Assembly (NCBI GenBank): GCA_025774205.1
Contig: JALGWK010000100.1
Span: 1-6,703, forward strand
Source of the DNA: a bacterium
GTDB taxonomy: Bacteria > Blakebacterota > Blakebacteria > Blakebacterales > Blakebacteraceae
Direction of reading: 5' to 3'
Length of the DNA: 6,703 nt
Shown: positions 252 through 6,703 of the stretch, piece after piece
How positions within the stretch are numbered: the stretch's first letter is position 1
How the letters are laid out: each line of letters begins with the position of its first letter
The notes under the pieces: generated by a model
Databases searched by the model: none
The model's input: only the letters and a program-made list of their open reading frames with translations
Told to the model about the DNA's origin: nothing
Translations under genes and position numbers: made by a program

Positions 252-581
252 ATGACAGCACTGATCCATGCGCTGACAGCGTATCAGCAGACACAACCCG
301 GCCCGTCTCAGGGAAATCCGATCGGGTACTTCCTCCCCTTCGCCCTCATCATCGGGATCTTCTACCTGATGATCATCCGGCCGCAGAGCAAGCGGCAGAA
401 GGCACATCGGGCGCTGGTTTCATCTCTCGAGAAGGGCAACCAGGTCGTCACGGCAGGGGGCTTCCACGGCACCGTGCACGCGATCAATGAAGAGACCGAT
501 ATTGTTGTTCTTGAGATCGCCGACAAAGTCCGCGTGGAGGTGAACCGCAGCAGCATTTCGAAAGTCCAGAAGAAGGATTGA
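252..581 (+). CDS. yajC: Preprotein translocase subunit YajC
   Basis: A 109-residue single-pass inner-membrane protein, the usual size for YajC. YajC associates with SecDF and the SecYEG channel in protein export and membrane insertion. After a short polar N-terminus, a hydrophobic segment at about residues 25-42 (GYFLPFALIIGIFYLMII) forms the membrane anchor. It is followed immediately by the family hallmark RPQSKRQK. The soluble C-terminal domain carries the typical KGNQVVTAGGFHGTV stretch and ends with a lysine-rich tail. The start ATG is supported by AAGGAG five bases upstream. In many bacteria secD and secF follow yajC. Here def begins five bases after the stop, so the gene heads a translation-related operon. 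Identification is firm from the anchor, RPQ motif and domain order. Confidence 0.95.
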   Translation: MTALIHALTAYQQTQPGPSQGNPIGYFLPFALIIGIFYLMIIRPQSKRQKAHRALVSSLEKGNQVVTAGGFHGTVHAINEETDIVVLEIADKVRVEVNRSSISKVQKKD

Positions 582-586
582 TCGGG

Positions 587-1105
587 ATGGCAGCTTTGCC
601 GATACGCATCTATGGTGACCCGGTGCTTCGGAAAAAGGCCGCGCCGGTCCCTGCTGTGGATGAAACGATCCGCGTCCTTGCCGCCGACATGCTGGAAAGC
701 ATGCAGGACGCCAACGGCATCGGCCTGTCCGCCAACCAGGTGGGCGAACTCTGCCGCCTGATCACTCTCAATTTCGACATCGATGACGGTGGGGAGGGAT
801 CCACAGCCATTGTCAATCCGCGGATCGTGGAGCGGGAGGGTGAGCAGCTCTCCATGGAGGGCTGTCTCTCGATCCCCGAGGTCTGGGAGGAAGTCGAGCG
901 GGACGACCGGATCGTGGTCGAATACCTCGACCTTGACGGCGAAGAACAGAGCCGTGATCTGCGGGGTCTGCACAGCGCGGTGGTCCAGCATGAGATCGAC
1001 CACCTCGAGGGGATCCTCTTCGTTGATCATATCCCCGCTGTCCGCCGCATGATGCTGCGAGGGACGCTCAAGCAGATGGCCCGGAGCGCCAGACAGACGG
1101 CGTGA
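587..1105 (+). CDS. def: Peptide deformylase
   Basis: A 172-residue metalloenzyme that removes the N-formyl group from nascent proteins at the ribosome. All three family motifs are present: GIGLSANQ (residues 44-51), EGCLS (91-95, metal ligand Cys93) and HEIDH (135-139, metal ligands His135 and His139, catalytic Glu136). The length matches bacterial type I deformylases. The ATG at 587 is preferred because AGAAGG at 571-576 sits ten bases upstream and the protein then begins MAALPIRIYGDPVLR, a standard Def N-terminus. An in-frame TTG at 578 would overlap yajC but lies only one base from that same site. The stop TGA overlaps the GTG start of fmt by four bases (GTGA). It pairs functionally with Fmt, which adds the formyl group that Def removes. 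Confidence 0.96.
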   Translation: MAALPIRIYGDPVLRKKAAPVPAVDETIRVLAADMLESMQDANGIGLSANQVGELCRLITLNFDIDDGGEGSTAIVNPRIVEREGEQLSMEGCLSIPEVWEEVERDDRIVVEYLDLDGEEQSRDLRGLHSAVVQHEIDHLEGILFVDHIPAVRRMMLRGTLKQMARSARQTA

Positions 1106-2064
1106 GGATCGCCTTCCTCGGCAACGGCGTCTTCGGGGTTCCCACCTTCAGGACGCTGGCCCGATCATCACACGAAATCATGGCGCTGGTCACCAGGCCC
1201 GACCGGGCCGCGGGTCGCGGCCGCAGGGAGACCATCAGCCCGTTGAAACCGCCGGCTGCGGATCACGATATACCGGTCGTCGAGATCGCCGATCTGAGGG
1301 CCGCCGAAACCGCCGGGCAGCTGGCGGAACTCGAGACAGACCTGTGGGTCGTCGTGGCCTTTCCGATCATCCCTTCCGACCTCCTGGTGATACCGCCGGC
1401 GGGTACGATCAACCTGCACGCCTCACTTCTGCCGCGGTACCGGGGCGCGGCTCCCGCACAGTGGGCGATCATCAACGGTGAGAGCGTCACCGGGGTGACG
1501 ACCTTCTTCATCGACGCCGGCATCGACACCGGAGGAATCTGTCTGCAGCGGGAGGTGGAGATCGAAGCCGACGAGAACGCCGACGGACTCCTGCTGCGAC
1601 TCGCCGATCACGGTGCCTCGCTCATGCTCGAGACGATCGAACTGATCGCGGCCGGGAAGGCCCCCCGAACGCCACAGGATCCGGGCCTCGCCACCCCGGC
1701 GCCGGCCTTCAGCAAGGAGGACGGGCTGGTCGACTGGGATCTCCCGTCGAATGCGATCCGGAACCGGATCAGGGGACTCCAACCGTGGCCGGGATCGTAT
1801 TCCACGCTTCGAGGTGAGCGTATCCTCCTCCTGAAGGCGCGCCCGGCGACCGCTGAGGAAGTGCCGTGGGAGGCAGGGGCAGCACCCCCTCCAGGCACCC
1901 TGGCCGGCTACCTTCCCAATGGCCTGCCGGTCGTCGCGACCGGGGGGGGAGAGGGACTGGTGCTGCTCGAGATCCAGCGGGAGGGACGACGACCGGGTGA
2001 CGGCGCCTCGGTCATGCGCGGTCTCCGCAGTGAGCCGGGAGTACGGTTCAGTGATGAAGGATGA
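1102..2064 (+). CDS. fmt: Methionyl-tRNA formyltransferase
   Basis: A 320-residue cytosolic enzyme that transfers a formyl group from 10-formyltetrahydrofolate to initiator Met-tRNA. The N-terminal Rossmann-type catalytic domain opens with MRIAFLGNGVFGVP and carries RPDRAAGRG. The active-site block is NLHASLLPRYRGAAP, with Asn104 and His106, and the catalytic aspartate is Asp142 in DAGIDTG. The C-terminal tRNA-binding domain starts around residue 205 (FSKEDGLVDW) and includes IRGLQPWPGSY. Length is normal for the family. The start is GTG, overlapping the def stop by four bases, so translation is probably coupled. A small departure is AFPIIP near residues 86-91, where the family usually shows AYG-x-x-LP. 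All catalytic residues remain, so the enzyme should be active. The 3' end overlaps rsmB by 11 bases. Confidence 0.96.
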   Translation: MRIAFLGNGVFGVPTFRTLARSSHEIMALVTRPDRAAGRGRRETISPLKPPAADHDIPVVEIADLRAAETAGQLAELETDLWVVVAFPIIPSDLLVIPPAGTINLHASLLPRYRGAAPAQWAIINGESVTGVTTFFIDAGIDTGGICLQREVEIEADENADGLLLRLADHGASLMLETIELIAAGKAPRTPQDPGLATPAPAFSKEDGLVDWDLPSNAIRNRIRGLQPWPGSYSTLRGERILLLKARPATAEEVPWEAGAAPPPGTLAGYLPNGLPVVATGGGEGLVLLEIQREGRRPGDGASVMRGLRSEPGVRFSDEG

Positions 2065-3358
2065 GATCAGGGGGCTCGCCGCGGCAATCCTGGTCGAGGT
2101 GGAGCAGGGCACCTTCCTCGACCTTGCCCTGAAGGACCGCCGGGGAGGACTGGCGGCGGGAGATCCGGGATCGGCGAGGCTCCAATTTCTGACTGCCGGC
2201 ACCACGAAATGGAGTGGACGGCTCGACCGCGAACTGGAGAGTCGGCTGCCGAAGGGGCTCGAAAGCCTCCCACCCGTTTGCAGGGCCATTCTCAGACTGG
2301 CGCTCTTTGAACTCCGGCACGGTGATTCCCCCGATTATGCCGTGGTGGATACGGCGGTCAACCAGACCCGGGATTCGGGGCTGGCAGGTCTGACGTCGGT
2401 AGTGAACGGAGTGCTCAGGACCGCCATCCGGGAGGGTGAACCACCACTGCCGGAGGATCCGTTCGGGCGTCTGGCGGCGGAGCATTCCCACCCCGAGTGG
2501 CTCCTCCGCCTGGTGGATGAAGTCCACGGAGTCGGGTCGGCAGCGGCTTTTGCGGCATGGAACAATCTGCCGCCGCCTATCTGGGTTCGGGTGAACCGGC
2601 TGGTGGAGAGCGTGGAGAGCGCGACCGGACTGCTCCGGGAATCGGGAATCGAGGTATACCCCGGCACGCTCCTGCCCGACTGGCTGCTCCTGGGGGAGGG
2701 GATCGATCCGGCGACTCTGGCAGGGATCAGGGAGGGATGGCTCACGGTCCAGGATCCCTCGGCCGGGCTGGCGGCTCTGGCGGCCGCGCCGGCAGAGGGT
2801 GCAAGCGCGGCTGACATCTGCGCCGCGCCGGGAGGCAAGGCGACCCATCTCGGGGAACTCGGTGCCAGGGTGGATGCCGCCGACAGCAATCGGGAGCGGG
2901 CGCTTCTGCTCCGGGAATCGATTGCGCGGCATGCCAGTGGGGGGATCACGCCGGTCGAGTATGGCGAACTCCTCTCCCGTCGGGAGAGCTACGACCTGGT
3001 GCTCATCGACGCGCCGTGCAGCAATACCGGAGTGCTCCGGCGGCGGGCCGATGCCCGCTGGCGCCTGACGGCCGAGGAACCGGCTCGACTGGCAGGAGTG
3101 CAGTCTCGTCTGCTGGAGAATGGCGCGGAACTGGTTCGTCCGGGAGGCGTACTGGTCTACAGCACGTGCACCCTCCTCCCGGTTGAAAACGAAGTGGTGG
3201 TGGATCGGTTTCTGTCGCACCATAATACTTTCATGCCGGACAACCTCCCGGGTTCCATCCCGGAGGTGTTCAGGAGAGGTGAAGGCAGAGCGGCATCACT
3301 TCCCTGGAAACACGGCCTGGATGGTTCCTTCGTTGCGAGGATGAAACGACAGCCATGA
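2054..3358 (+). CDS. rsmB: 16S rRNA m5C967 methyltransferase RsmB (Sun/Fmu family)
   Basis: A 434-residue SAM-dependent RNA cytosine-C5 methyltransferase. The N-terminal third is a NusB-like helical RNA-binding domain (IRGLAAAILVEVEQGTF at the start, AVVDTAVNQTRD near residues 96-107). The C-terminal catalytic domain has the SAM-binding loop CAAPGGKATHL (from residue 256), DAPCSNTG with Cys322, and STCTLLPVENE with the catalytic nucleophile Cys372. The two-cysteine arrangement is diagnostic of the NOL1/NOP2/Sun family, and the NusB-like domain points to RsmB rather than RsmF. ATG 2054 is chosen because the protein then begins MKDEIRGLAAA; GTG 2051 directly before it is an equally possible start, with GGGAG at 2037-2041. 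An open frame extends upstream inside fmt but shows no family similarity. It overlaps fmt by 11 bases and the PASTA gene by four. Confidence 0.94.
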   Translation: MKDEIRGLAAAILVEVEQGTFLDLALKDRRGGLAAGDPGSARLQFLTAGTTKWSGRLDRELESRLPKGLESLPPVCRAILRLALFELRHGDSPDYAVVDTAVNQTRDSGLAGLTSVVNGVLRTAIREGEPPLPEDPFGRLAAEHSHPEWLLRLVDEVHGVGSAAAFAAWNNLPPPIWVRVNRLVESVESATGLLRESGIEVYPGTLLPDWLLLGEGIDPATLAGIREGWLTVQDPSAGLAALAAAPAEGASAADICAAPGGKATHLGELGARVDAADSNRERALLLRESIARHASGGITPVEYGELLSRRESYDLVLIDAPCSNTGVLRRRADARWRLTAEEPARLAGVQSRLLENGAELVRPGGVLVYSTCTLLPVENEVVVDRFLSHHNTFMPDNLPGSIPEVFRRGEGRAASLPWKHGLDGSFVARMKRQP

Positions 3359-4263
3359 CATCGATGACACAACGGGACGATAACGGAGGAGGAACCGATT
3401 TTGTCATGATCGTGAAATCGGCGGGACTCCTCGTCATGCTCCTCCTCATCATCACCGCCTTCTTCATAGGCGGCATGATCCTCGTCGACCGGGTGATCAT
3501 GCCGGCCTGGACCGATCGCGGATCGGAGGTCGATCTGCCGGACATCGTCGACCTCGATTTCTACGCCGCCAAGAGCGACCTGCAGGAGCTCGGCCTCGAA
3601 CTGGAGCGGATCGAAGAGAGTTTCCACGCCGTCATCGACGAGGGGCGGATTATCGAACAGGTGCCGCCTCCCTTTACCCGGGTGAAGAAGGGCCGCACCG
3701 TCGGCGTGGTCGTCAGCCGGGGGCCGGAGGAGGTCATCATCCCCGACCTGACGAGGCTGACGACCGATCAGGCCCGGGCAAAACTCCAGGACTTCGGTCT
3801 TCTGCTGGGGCAGATCACCACCCGTCCCGACGATTCACCCGACGGCACCGTGATCGACCAGCGGCCAGGCGCCACCCTGAAGGCTCTGCGGAACACCCGG
3901 ATCAGCCTGGTGGTTAGTTCAGGACCGCTACGGACCACCAGCCTCATCCCCCGGCTCGTGAACATGGGGCTCACCGGCGCTCTGACGAGGATCAGGGATA
4001 TAGACGGCAAAGTCTGGATCGAATGGATCGAAGATGACACCCAGGTGATGATGACAGTGGTTGAGCAGAGTCCCGATCCGGGTAACGAGGTTGAGGGTAT
4101 ACCGATCTTCGACCTGACGGTCGCGGTCAGGACCGGTTTCAGACCGACCGCGGCCATGGTGGACACCGTCGGTATGGGCGCTCCGCCCCCCTGGGTGCGT
4201 CAGGGCCTCGACGCGCCGCCACCCGAAGAAGATCGCCGTGGACGTCGGATTCCACCGCGGTGA
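3355..4263 (+). CDS. Membrane-anchored protein with three PASTA domains
   Basis: A 302-residue protein with a short cytoplasmic N-terminus, one membrane segment at about residues 24-45 (GLLVMLLLIITAFFIGGMIL) and an outer region of three tandem PASTA domains. These span roughly 58-126, 127-195 and 196-263. The first two have the expected pattern: an opening 'P-D-(I/L)', a helix, a 'V-I-x-Q-x-P' strand and a closing V-S-x-G-P. The third is divergent, beginning IPRLVNM and keeping VEQSPDPG. A proline/arginine-rich tail (APPPEEDRRGRR) ends the chain. PASTA modules in serine/threonine kinases and penicillin-binding proteins sense or bind muropeptides. No kinase or transpeptidase domain is present here, so a periplasmic peptidoglycan-binding role is inference. 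The ATG overlaps the rsmB stop by four bases (ATGA); ATG 3364 is an alternative start. Confidence 0.88.
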   Translation: MTSMTQRDDNGGGTDFVMIVKSAGLLVMLLLIITAFFIGGMILVDRVIMPAWTDRGSEVDLPDIVDLDFYAAKSDLQELGLELERIEESFHAVIDEGRIIEQVPPPFTRVKKGRTVGVVVSRGPEEVIIPDLTRLTTDQARAKLQDFGLLLGQITTRPDDSPDGTVIDQRPGATLKALRNTRISLVVSSGPLRTTSLIPRLVNMGLTGALTRIRDIDGKVWIEWIEDDTQVMMTVVEQSPDPGNEVEGIPIFDLTVAVRTGFRPTAAMVDTVGMGAPPPWVRQGLDAPPPEEDRRGRRIPPR

Positions 4264-4270
4264 TGCCGTC

Positions 4271-4939
4271 ATGAGTGTCCAGGTAGCGCCCAGCCTGCTC
4301 TCGGCCGATTTCGGCCGGCTGGAAGGGGAGATCGCCATGGTTGAGGCGGCCGGAGCCGACCTCCTCCACCTCGACGTGATGGACGCCCATTTCGTGCCCA
4401 ATCTGACCTTCGGTCCGTTGATCGTCGAAGCCGTCACCCGTCTCACAACCCTGCCCCGCGACACTCACCTCATGATCACCGACCCCGACCGGTACCTCGA
4501 TCCATTCGTTGAAGCTGGCGTCTCGACCTTCACCTTCCATCTCGAGGCGTTCGGGGAGGAAGAACGCGAAGCGCGGGCCGACTCGATTCTGGAGCGGCTG
4601 GCGACGGCGGGAGTAGGCCGGGGCCTCGCCCTCAACCCCGAAACTCCCGTGGAGTGGGTGTACCCCTGGCTCGATCGCCTGGAGACGGTGCTCATCATGA
4701 CCGTTCATCCCGGTTTTGGGGGCCAGAAGCTGATAGCGGAGAGCCTGGCCAGGGTACCGCTCCTGAGAGAGGAGATCGACCGGCAGGGCGTGACGGTCAC
4801 CATCGGTGTGGATGGCGGGGTTACGACCGGGAACGCGGCTGAAGTCGTCGCCGCGGGAGCTGATATCCTGGTGGCAGGATCGGCTGTGTTCGGCGCTGAT
4901 GATCCCGCTGCCGCGATTACGGCCATCCGTGGCGCCTGA
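4271..4939 (+). CDS. rpe: Ribulose-phosphate 3-epimerase
   Basis: A 222-residue TIM-barrel enzyme interconverting D-ribulose 5-phosphate and D-xylulose 5-phosphate in the pentose phosphate or Calvin pathway. Family blocks appear in order: APSLLSADF (6-14), HLDVMDAHFVPN (33-44), HLM (66-68), LNPETP (121-126), HPGFGGQ (146-152) and GVDGGV (179-184). The predicted metal ligands are His33, Asp35, His66 and Asp181, with Asp35 and Asp181 also acting as acid/base catalysts; all are present. GSAVFG (203-208) is the phosphate-binding end. ATG 4271 is chosen because the protein then begins MSVQVAPSLLSADF as in homologues. GTG 4238 would add 11 residues and overlap the PASTA gene. The start lies seven bases after the preceding stop, with only a weak GGTGA site, so coupling is likely. 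Confidence 0.96.
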   Translation: MSVQVAPSLLSADFGRLEGEIAMVEAAGADLLHLDVMDAHFVPNLTFGPLIVEAVTRLTTLPRDTHLMITDPDRYLDPFVEAGVSTFTFHLEAFGEEEREARADSILERLATAGVGRGLALNPETPVEWVYPWLDRLETVLIMTVHPGFGGQKLIAESLARVPLLREEIDRQGVTVTIGVDGGVTTGNAAEVVAAGADILVAGSAVFGADDPAAAITAIRGA

Positions 4940-5033: not shown

Positions 5034-6703
5034 ATGTTTGATACCCTCACTGCCAGATTAAGCACGGTACTCGACCGTCTGCGCGGTCGGGGGGTTTTGA
5101 GCGAGGAGAATGTAGCCGAGGCCCTTCGGGATGTGCGGAGGGCGCTCCTCGAAGCTGATGTGAACGTGGGAGTGGCCCGTTCTTTCATAGAGAGGGTGAA
5201 GGAAGAAGCCCTCGGAAGCGAGGTCGGGAAGGGGATCCGTCCCGGTCAGCAGATGGTCGGGATCATCCATGCCGAGCTGGTGGGATTGCTGGGAGGAGCG
5301 GGTGAACCGCCCGATCTGGACCTTTCCGGAAAGCCTCCGACCACCGTCATGCTCCTCGGTCTGCAGGGCTCGGGGAAGACGACACTGGCAGCCAAACTGG
5401 CGCTGCGCTTCCATTCCGGAGGCCGGAAGATCGGCCTGATGGGGCTCGATCCGTACCGCCCGGCGGCAGGTGAACAGCTCAAACGTCTCGCGGAACGTGT
5501 GGAGGCTCCGGTCTCTGTTGCCGGTGAGGGTGAATCACCACTCACGGCCGCGCTCCGGATCTCGGGCGAATTCGAGGCTGCTGGAATAGACCTCGTACTC
5601 GTCGACACCGCCGGCCGACAGACGGTGGACGAGATCCTGATGGATGAACTGGCCGACCTGCAGCAGCAGCTGAAGCCGCGGGAATCGCTGCTCGTTCTGG
5701 ACGCGATGACCGGTCAGGATGCTGTCAAGACCGCGAAGACGTTCAATGACCGTCTCGAATGCACCGGAGCCGTCCTGACCAAACTCGACGGTGATGCCAG
5801 AGGCGGGGCGGCGCTCTCCCTGCGAGGCGTGACGGGATTACCCATCCGCTATGCCGGGACGGGCGAGGAACTCGGTGCCCTGGAGGTATTCCATCCCGAC
5901 CGGATGGCCGGGAGGATCCTCGGGATGGGGGACGTGGTCTCCCTGGTCGAACGCGCCGCGGCCGATGCCGGGGGCGCGGAGGCGCTGGCCGAGGAAGGGC
6001 GGAAATTCGTCGCGGGTGAGTTCACCCTCGAGGACTTCCGGGAGCAGATGCGTCGCCTGCGGAGCATGGGTTCCGTGCAGGACCTGGTCGGGATGCTGCC
6101 CGGTCAGTTCGATCGGGCCCTGGCAGGACAGGAAATTGATGAAGACTCGATCGTGGCCCTGGAGGCCATGATTGACAGCATGACACCGGAAGAACGACGT
6201 CGCCCCGGCATCCTCGATGGAAGCCGGCGGCGAAGGATCGCACGAGGCAGCGGACGGAGTGTGCAGGAAGTCAACACGCTCCTGAAGCAGTACTCGATGA
6301 TGCAGAAGATGGCCAAGGCCCTGAAGGGCAAGGGCAGGAAGGGGCGGATGCCCTTTCCGCCGATGTTCAGTTCCCGGAGCCCGCGCGACGGAAGGTTCAT
6401 TGAGATCCTGGGGAATTACAATCCCCACACGGACCCTCCGGAGATTACAATCGACGAGGAGAGGACGCTCTACTGGCTGAAGACAGGGGCCCAGCCCTCG
6501 AATACCGCCAGGAGCCTGCTCTCGAAGAAGGGGATCCTCAAGCGTCTCGCGGAAGAGAGACCTGACCACCCTCTGCTGAAGAAGCCGGTGAGACGGGGCC
6601 GCCGACCTGAAGTCGCCCCCGAAGAGCCGGAAGCTGTCGAGGTTGTGGAAGCTCCCGTCGAGCCTGAAGAGGCTGCTGTCGAGGAGACCGCCGAGGCGGA
6701 AGC
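5034..6703 (+). CDS. ffh: Signal recognition particle protein Ffh, read through in frame into S16 (3' end open)
   Basis: This SRP GTPase binds signal peptides and 4.5S RNA and docks nascent chains to FtsY at the membrane. The first 445 residues are a full-length Ffh. An N domain ([18 protein letters not shown]) is followed by a G domain with P-loop GLQGSGKTT (109-117), [11 protein letters not shown] (139-149), DTAGR (191-195) and [10 protein letters not shown] (249-258). The M domain carries the RNA-binding signature [11 protein letters not shown] (397-407), then VNTLLKQ, and ends with the basic tail [16 protein letters not shown] stop is expected about here. Instead the frame continues unbroken from residue 446 into ribosomal protein S16 and off the window. 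The ATG start fits family N-termini although only a weak AGG precedes it. The Ffh part is certain; whether the fusion is real is open. Confidence 0.9.
6336..6350 (+). promoter_or_regulatory. Possible internal ribosome binding site and ATG before the S16 segment
   Basis: AGGAAGG (6336-6342) lies five bases before an in-frame ATG at 6348 inside the Ffh basic tail. Translation from it would give a short S16-like protein starting [11 protein letters not shown]. The purine-rich string also simply encodes Gly/Arg/Lys of the tail, so this may be coincidental. A second in-frame ATG is at 6363. Confidence 0.25.
6369..6703 (+). other. rpsP: Ribosomal protein S16 segment lacking its N-terminus, fused to ffh; incomplete at window end
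   Basis: From codon 447 of the ffh frame the translation is unmistakably S16, a small-subunit assembly protein. It reads [11 protein letters not shown], then a G-N-YNP turn, [22 protein letters not shown] and [10 protein letters not shown]. Intact S16 proteins begin with about 23 more residues: a basic beta strand rich in Arg/Lys, then a PFYxIVVAD-like stretch. None of that is present; Ffh tail residues directly precede SRS. After GIL comes a C-terminal extension, first basic (KKPVRRGRR), then Glu/Ala/Val/Pro-rich and acidic, as seen on S16 in some phyla. The coding frame is still open at 6703. ffh-rpsP adjacency is a common bacterial gene order, so a deletion spanning the ffh stop, the spacer and the rpsP start would give exactly this product. 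As written it should not fold as normal S16. Confidence 0.85.

Follow-up and report, generated by a model that had tools for sequence, protein, structure and literature searches.

An in-frame junction between ffh and a truncated rpsP in a draft metagenome genome is most probably an assembly artefact

The window analysed here, a stretch of 6,703 nucleotides, is the entire contig C335 of a draft metagenome genome that totals 3,088,548 bases in 527 contigs, with 85.85% completeness and 4.84% contamination. Its upstream part (252–4939) carries, in order, genes for a YajC-like protein, peptide deformylase, methionyl-tRNA formyltransferase, an RsmB-like methyltransferase, a PASTA-repeat protein and ribulose-phosphate 3-epimerase, names that come from reading their translations. 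These genes are colinear with those of the congener G001, the one further genome that was found for this genus (locus L021; its contig is the same as JALGVQ010000004.1, L032), and ffh comes next. From 5034 to 6701 on the + strand runs a single frame of 556 aa, free of stop codons and open at the contig end, with Pfam domains in the order SRP54_N (PF02881, residues 5–82), SRP54 (PF00448, 103–297), SRP_SPB (PF02978, 329–426) and Ribosomal_S16 (PF00886, 446–489). The Ffh part scores 515.7 bits against TIGR00959 and is complete, with N, G and M domains all present, since the match covers profile positions 1–427 of 428. The S16 part matches only positions 16–62 of 62 in PF00886 and 22–77 of 78 in TIGR00002, the latter of which indicates that its N-terminus is missing. 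Ffh thus reads straight into bS16 at residue 25. By both S16 profiles the full domain with its basic N-terminal region is lacking; the bS16 core and its conserved motif are retained, with 90% amino acid identity to the congener over 77 codons. The profile matches and the absence of stops bear out the preliminary description, made from the letters of the window, which had proposed one uninterrupted frame from ffh into S16.

The junction was placed precisely by alignment with the congener, in which Ffh is 83% identical at the amino acid level. In G001, ffh ends in ...MPFPPMFR and a stop, followed by an 11-nt spacer that begins with GGAG and by rpsP with a GTG start. The window has one clean gap of 86 nt between 6370 and 6371. 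On its left side ffh (5034–6370, +), supported by TIGR00959 and colinear with the congener gene, is complete as far as its final codon (ATG TTC AG.), and its stop is lost at the junction (6370–6371, +). On its right side an rpsP remnant (6371–6703, +), supported by PF00886 and by congener identity, begins with the third base of codon 24, continues into the acidic C-terminal tail and runs off the contig. The absent 86 nt therefore comprise the last base of the final ffh codon, TAA, the GGAG-containing spacer, the GTG start, and 23 whole rpsP codons together with the first two bases of codon 24. The preliminary description had put the junction at about 6368/6372, within a codon of this position, and its estimate of roughly 23 lost rpsP codons agrees with the measured loss. 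Along the roughly 6.5 kb that align with the congener, this gap is the sole large gene-breaking difference.

In the congener, rpsP is read in another frame than ffh, and 86 is not divisible by three, so the join brings the two genes into one frame. That it does so happens by chance; a random deletion would give an in-frame join about one time in three. We considered sequence features that could have promoted a deletion. Folding of the congener boundary was no better than that of shuffled sequence (z = −0.52), and although an inverted-repeat arm, TTCCCGG, begins at the right breakpoint, the left breakpoint does not fall at the partner arm, so a hairpin-driven event was rejected. A microhomology-driven event was rejected as well, as the congener has no exact run common to both breakpoints; the sole recurrence is CAG, offset by one base. 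Judged from the congener sequence, the two breakpoints have neither useful microhomology nor a common k-mer, and simple k-mer collapse is for this reason insufficient to account for the gap.

Relatives have separate ffh and rpsP genes. Both genes are intact and distinct in the congener (L021/L032) and in the same-family genome G003 (L010), where the rpsP GTG directly follows the ffh stop. This comparison, which the preliminary description had proposed as a check, argues against a fusion. Of the 60 genomes searched, 57 besides that of the window gave an S16 match, congener and family member included. Every one of these 57 matches is full-length (positions 1–62), and the window S16 is the sole match starting at profile position 16. 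In a larger S16 search, every start among the matches listed is at position 1 or 2. Wherever rpsP was matched in the searched genomes, it occurs once per genome. The basic N-terminal region is likewise present in the S16 of solved ribosomes. One same-family genome, G002 (72% complete), gave no S16 match, probably owing to missing sequence. Two long open frames that could have represented fusions, of 622 aa in G025 and 639 aa in G027, resolved on inspection into separate ffh and rpsP genes. With these included, no ffh-rpsP fusion was found in any relative; the junction sequence of the window has no match in relatives or in viral contigs, and a literature search on ffh-rpsP fusions yielded nothing relevant.

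The contig end lies close to the junction. C335 terminates 333 nt past it, within the acidic tail of S16, and another contig of the assembly, C371, starts with the tail's final residues (...DEETETVEETEEETKE, stop). Next on C371 come rimM, trmD, rplS and a gene like that for ribonuclease HII, all colinear with their congener counterparts; these names rest on translations read by eye and on the known order of the trmD operon (PMC10931766). No exact overlap of at least 10 nt links the C335 end to the C371 start. In the congener, the S16 tail consists of six 39-nt units in tandem, at the very place where C335 breaks off. Since rpsP is split between C335 and C371, the gene was not assembled whole, and the suspicious join is close to a true break in the assembly. 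The long acidic C-terminal tail is itself a feature of S16 in this genus, seen in the window (6600–6703) and at the start of C371 (L050); in the congener it is encoded by the six repeats (EETPSEPEVAAEA; L036, 9561–9793), and the same-family S16 at L010 has a long acidic tail as well. Overall, the layout of ffh followed by rpsP-rimM-trmD-rplS is alike in gene order and sequence in the congener and in the window with its continuation on C371, and differs in the 86 nt that the window lacks at the ffh/rpsP boundary.

A search for a second full-length rpsP, likewise suggested in the preliminary description, found no other S16 in the bin (85.85% complete), whether the query was the profile or the protein or DNA of the congener, at loose cut-offs. 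Nor does the bin, at that completeness, hold a stray copy of the missing 86-nt piece. Between window and congener, dN/dS is about 0.06 for the S16 remnant and 0.11 for Ffh. The remnant is thus under strong purifying selection, which implies that a working S16 is still made in this lineage or was made until very recently, and that the deletion, if real, is recent.

From these observations we infer a technical origin for the absence of the 86 nt: in our judgement it is very probably a deletion artefact, arising locally in the assembly or at the read level, rather than the mark of a novel fusion protein. The organism would have ordinary separate ffh and rpsP genes, as in the congener, with rpsP heading an rpsP-rimM-trmD-rplS operon. 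The gap would be a local metagenome-assembly error, caused by bad gap closure or by a consensus that was based on a read that was chimeric or carried a deletion. bS16 has been described as essential and as important in 30S assembly (PMC10931766). As the residues lost are the conserved basic N-terminal region of this essential protein, a lineage with the 86-nt deletion and no other S16 would not be expected to survive. A technical cause also fits better because local assembly errors are documented in metagenome genomes and propagate incorrect protein-coding genes (PMC7111523); there, as is suspected in the window, wrong joins in fragmented drafts yield such genes. The preliminary description had thought an artefact likelier than a real fusion, and the separate genes in relatives together with the lack of a second rpsP in the bin leave that reading favoured, if not proven. 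What counts against it is the junction itself, which is clean, in frame and devoid of an N run or useful microhomology. With simple k-mer collapse insufficient, one has to assume in addition either a gap-closing step or a read that was chimeric or had a deletion.

The same clean gap, with no N run, would suit a real and recent 86-nt deletion that destroyed the rpsP start in this strain or in a small fraction of the population. Growth would then rely on another S16 encoded in the roughly 14% of the genome that is missing by the completeness estimate, or the window would represent a dead-end allele picked up by the assembler. We regard such a deletion as unlikely, given the single rpsP in each searched genome with a match, the failure to see a second copy in the bin and the strong conservation of the remnant. 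A working Ffh-S16 chimera is less likely still. It would act as a fused SRP-ribosome protein, or would supply a shortened S16 by internal initiation at the ATG at 6349 or 6363, and the single open frame and the conservation of both its parts are what it would predict. There is also a precedent of a kind: an S16-RimM hybrid protein of E. coli, said to have been described by Lovgren and Wikstrom in 2001, in which S16 is likewise fused to the protein of an adjacent gene. The partner there is RimM and not Ffh, and function was reportedly kept; in the window the N-terminus of S16 is missing. The loss of 24 S16 residues from a basic N-terminal region that is kept in every relative with a match and in solved ribosomes, and the lack of a fusion in any relative, make a working chimera very doubtful. 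Least credible of all is a living bacterium in which an S16 without its first 24 residues is covalently attached to Ffh, so that the SRP protein is tied to the small subunit or a truncated S16 sits in the ribosome.

If true, such a fusion would be an exception to the rule by which Ffh and S16 are two distinct essential proteins. As the finding most likely stands, with an artefact as its source, its meaning is one of caution only: a boundary deletion in a draft metagenome, in frame by chance, can look convincingly like two essential proteins fused into one.
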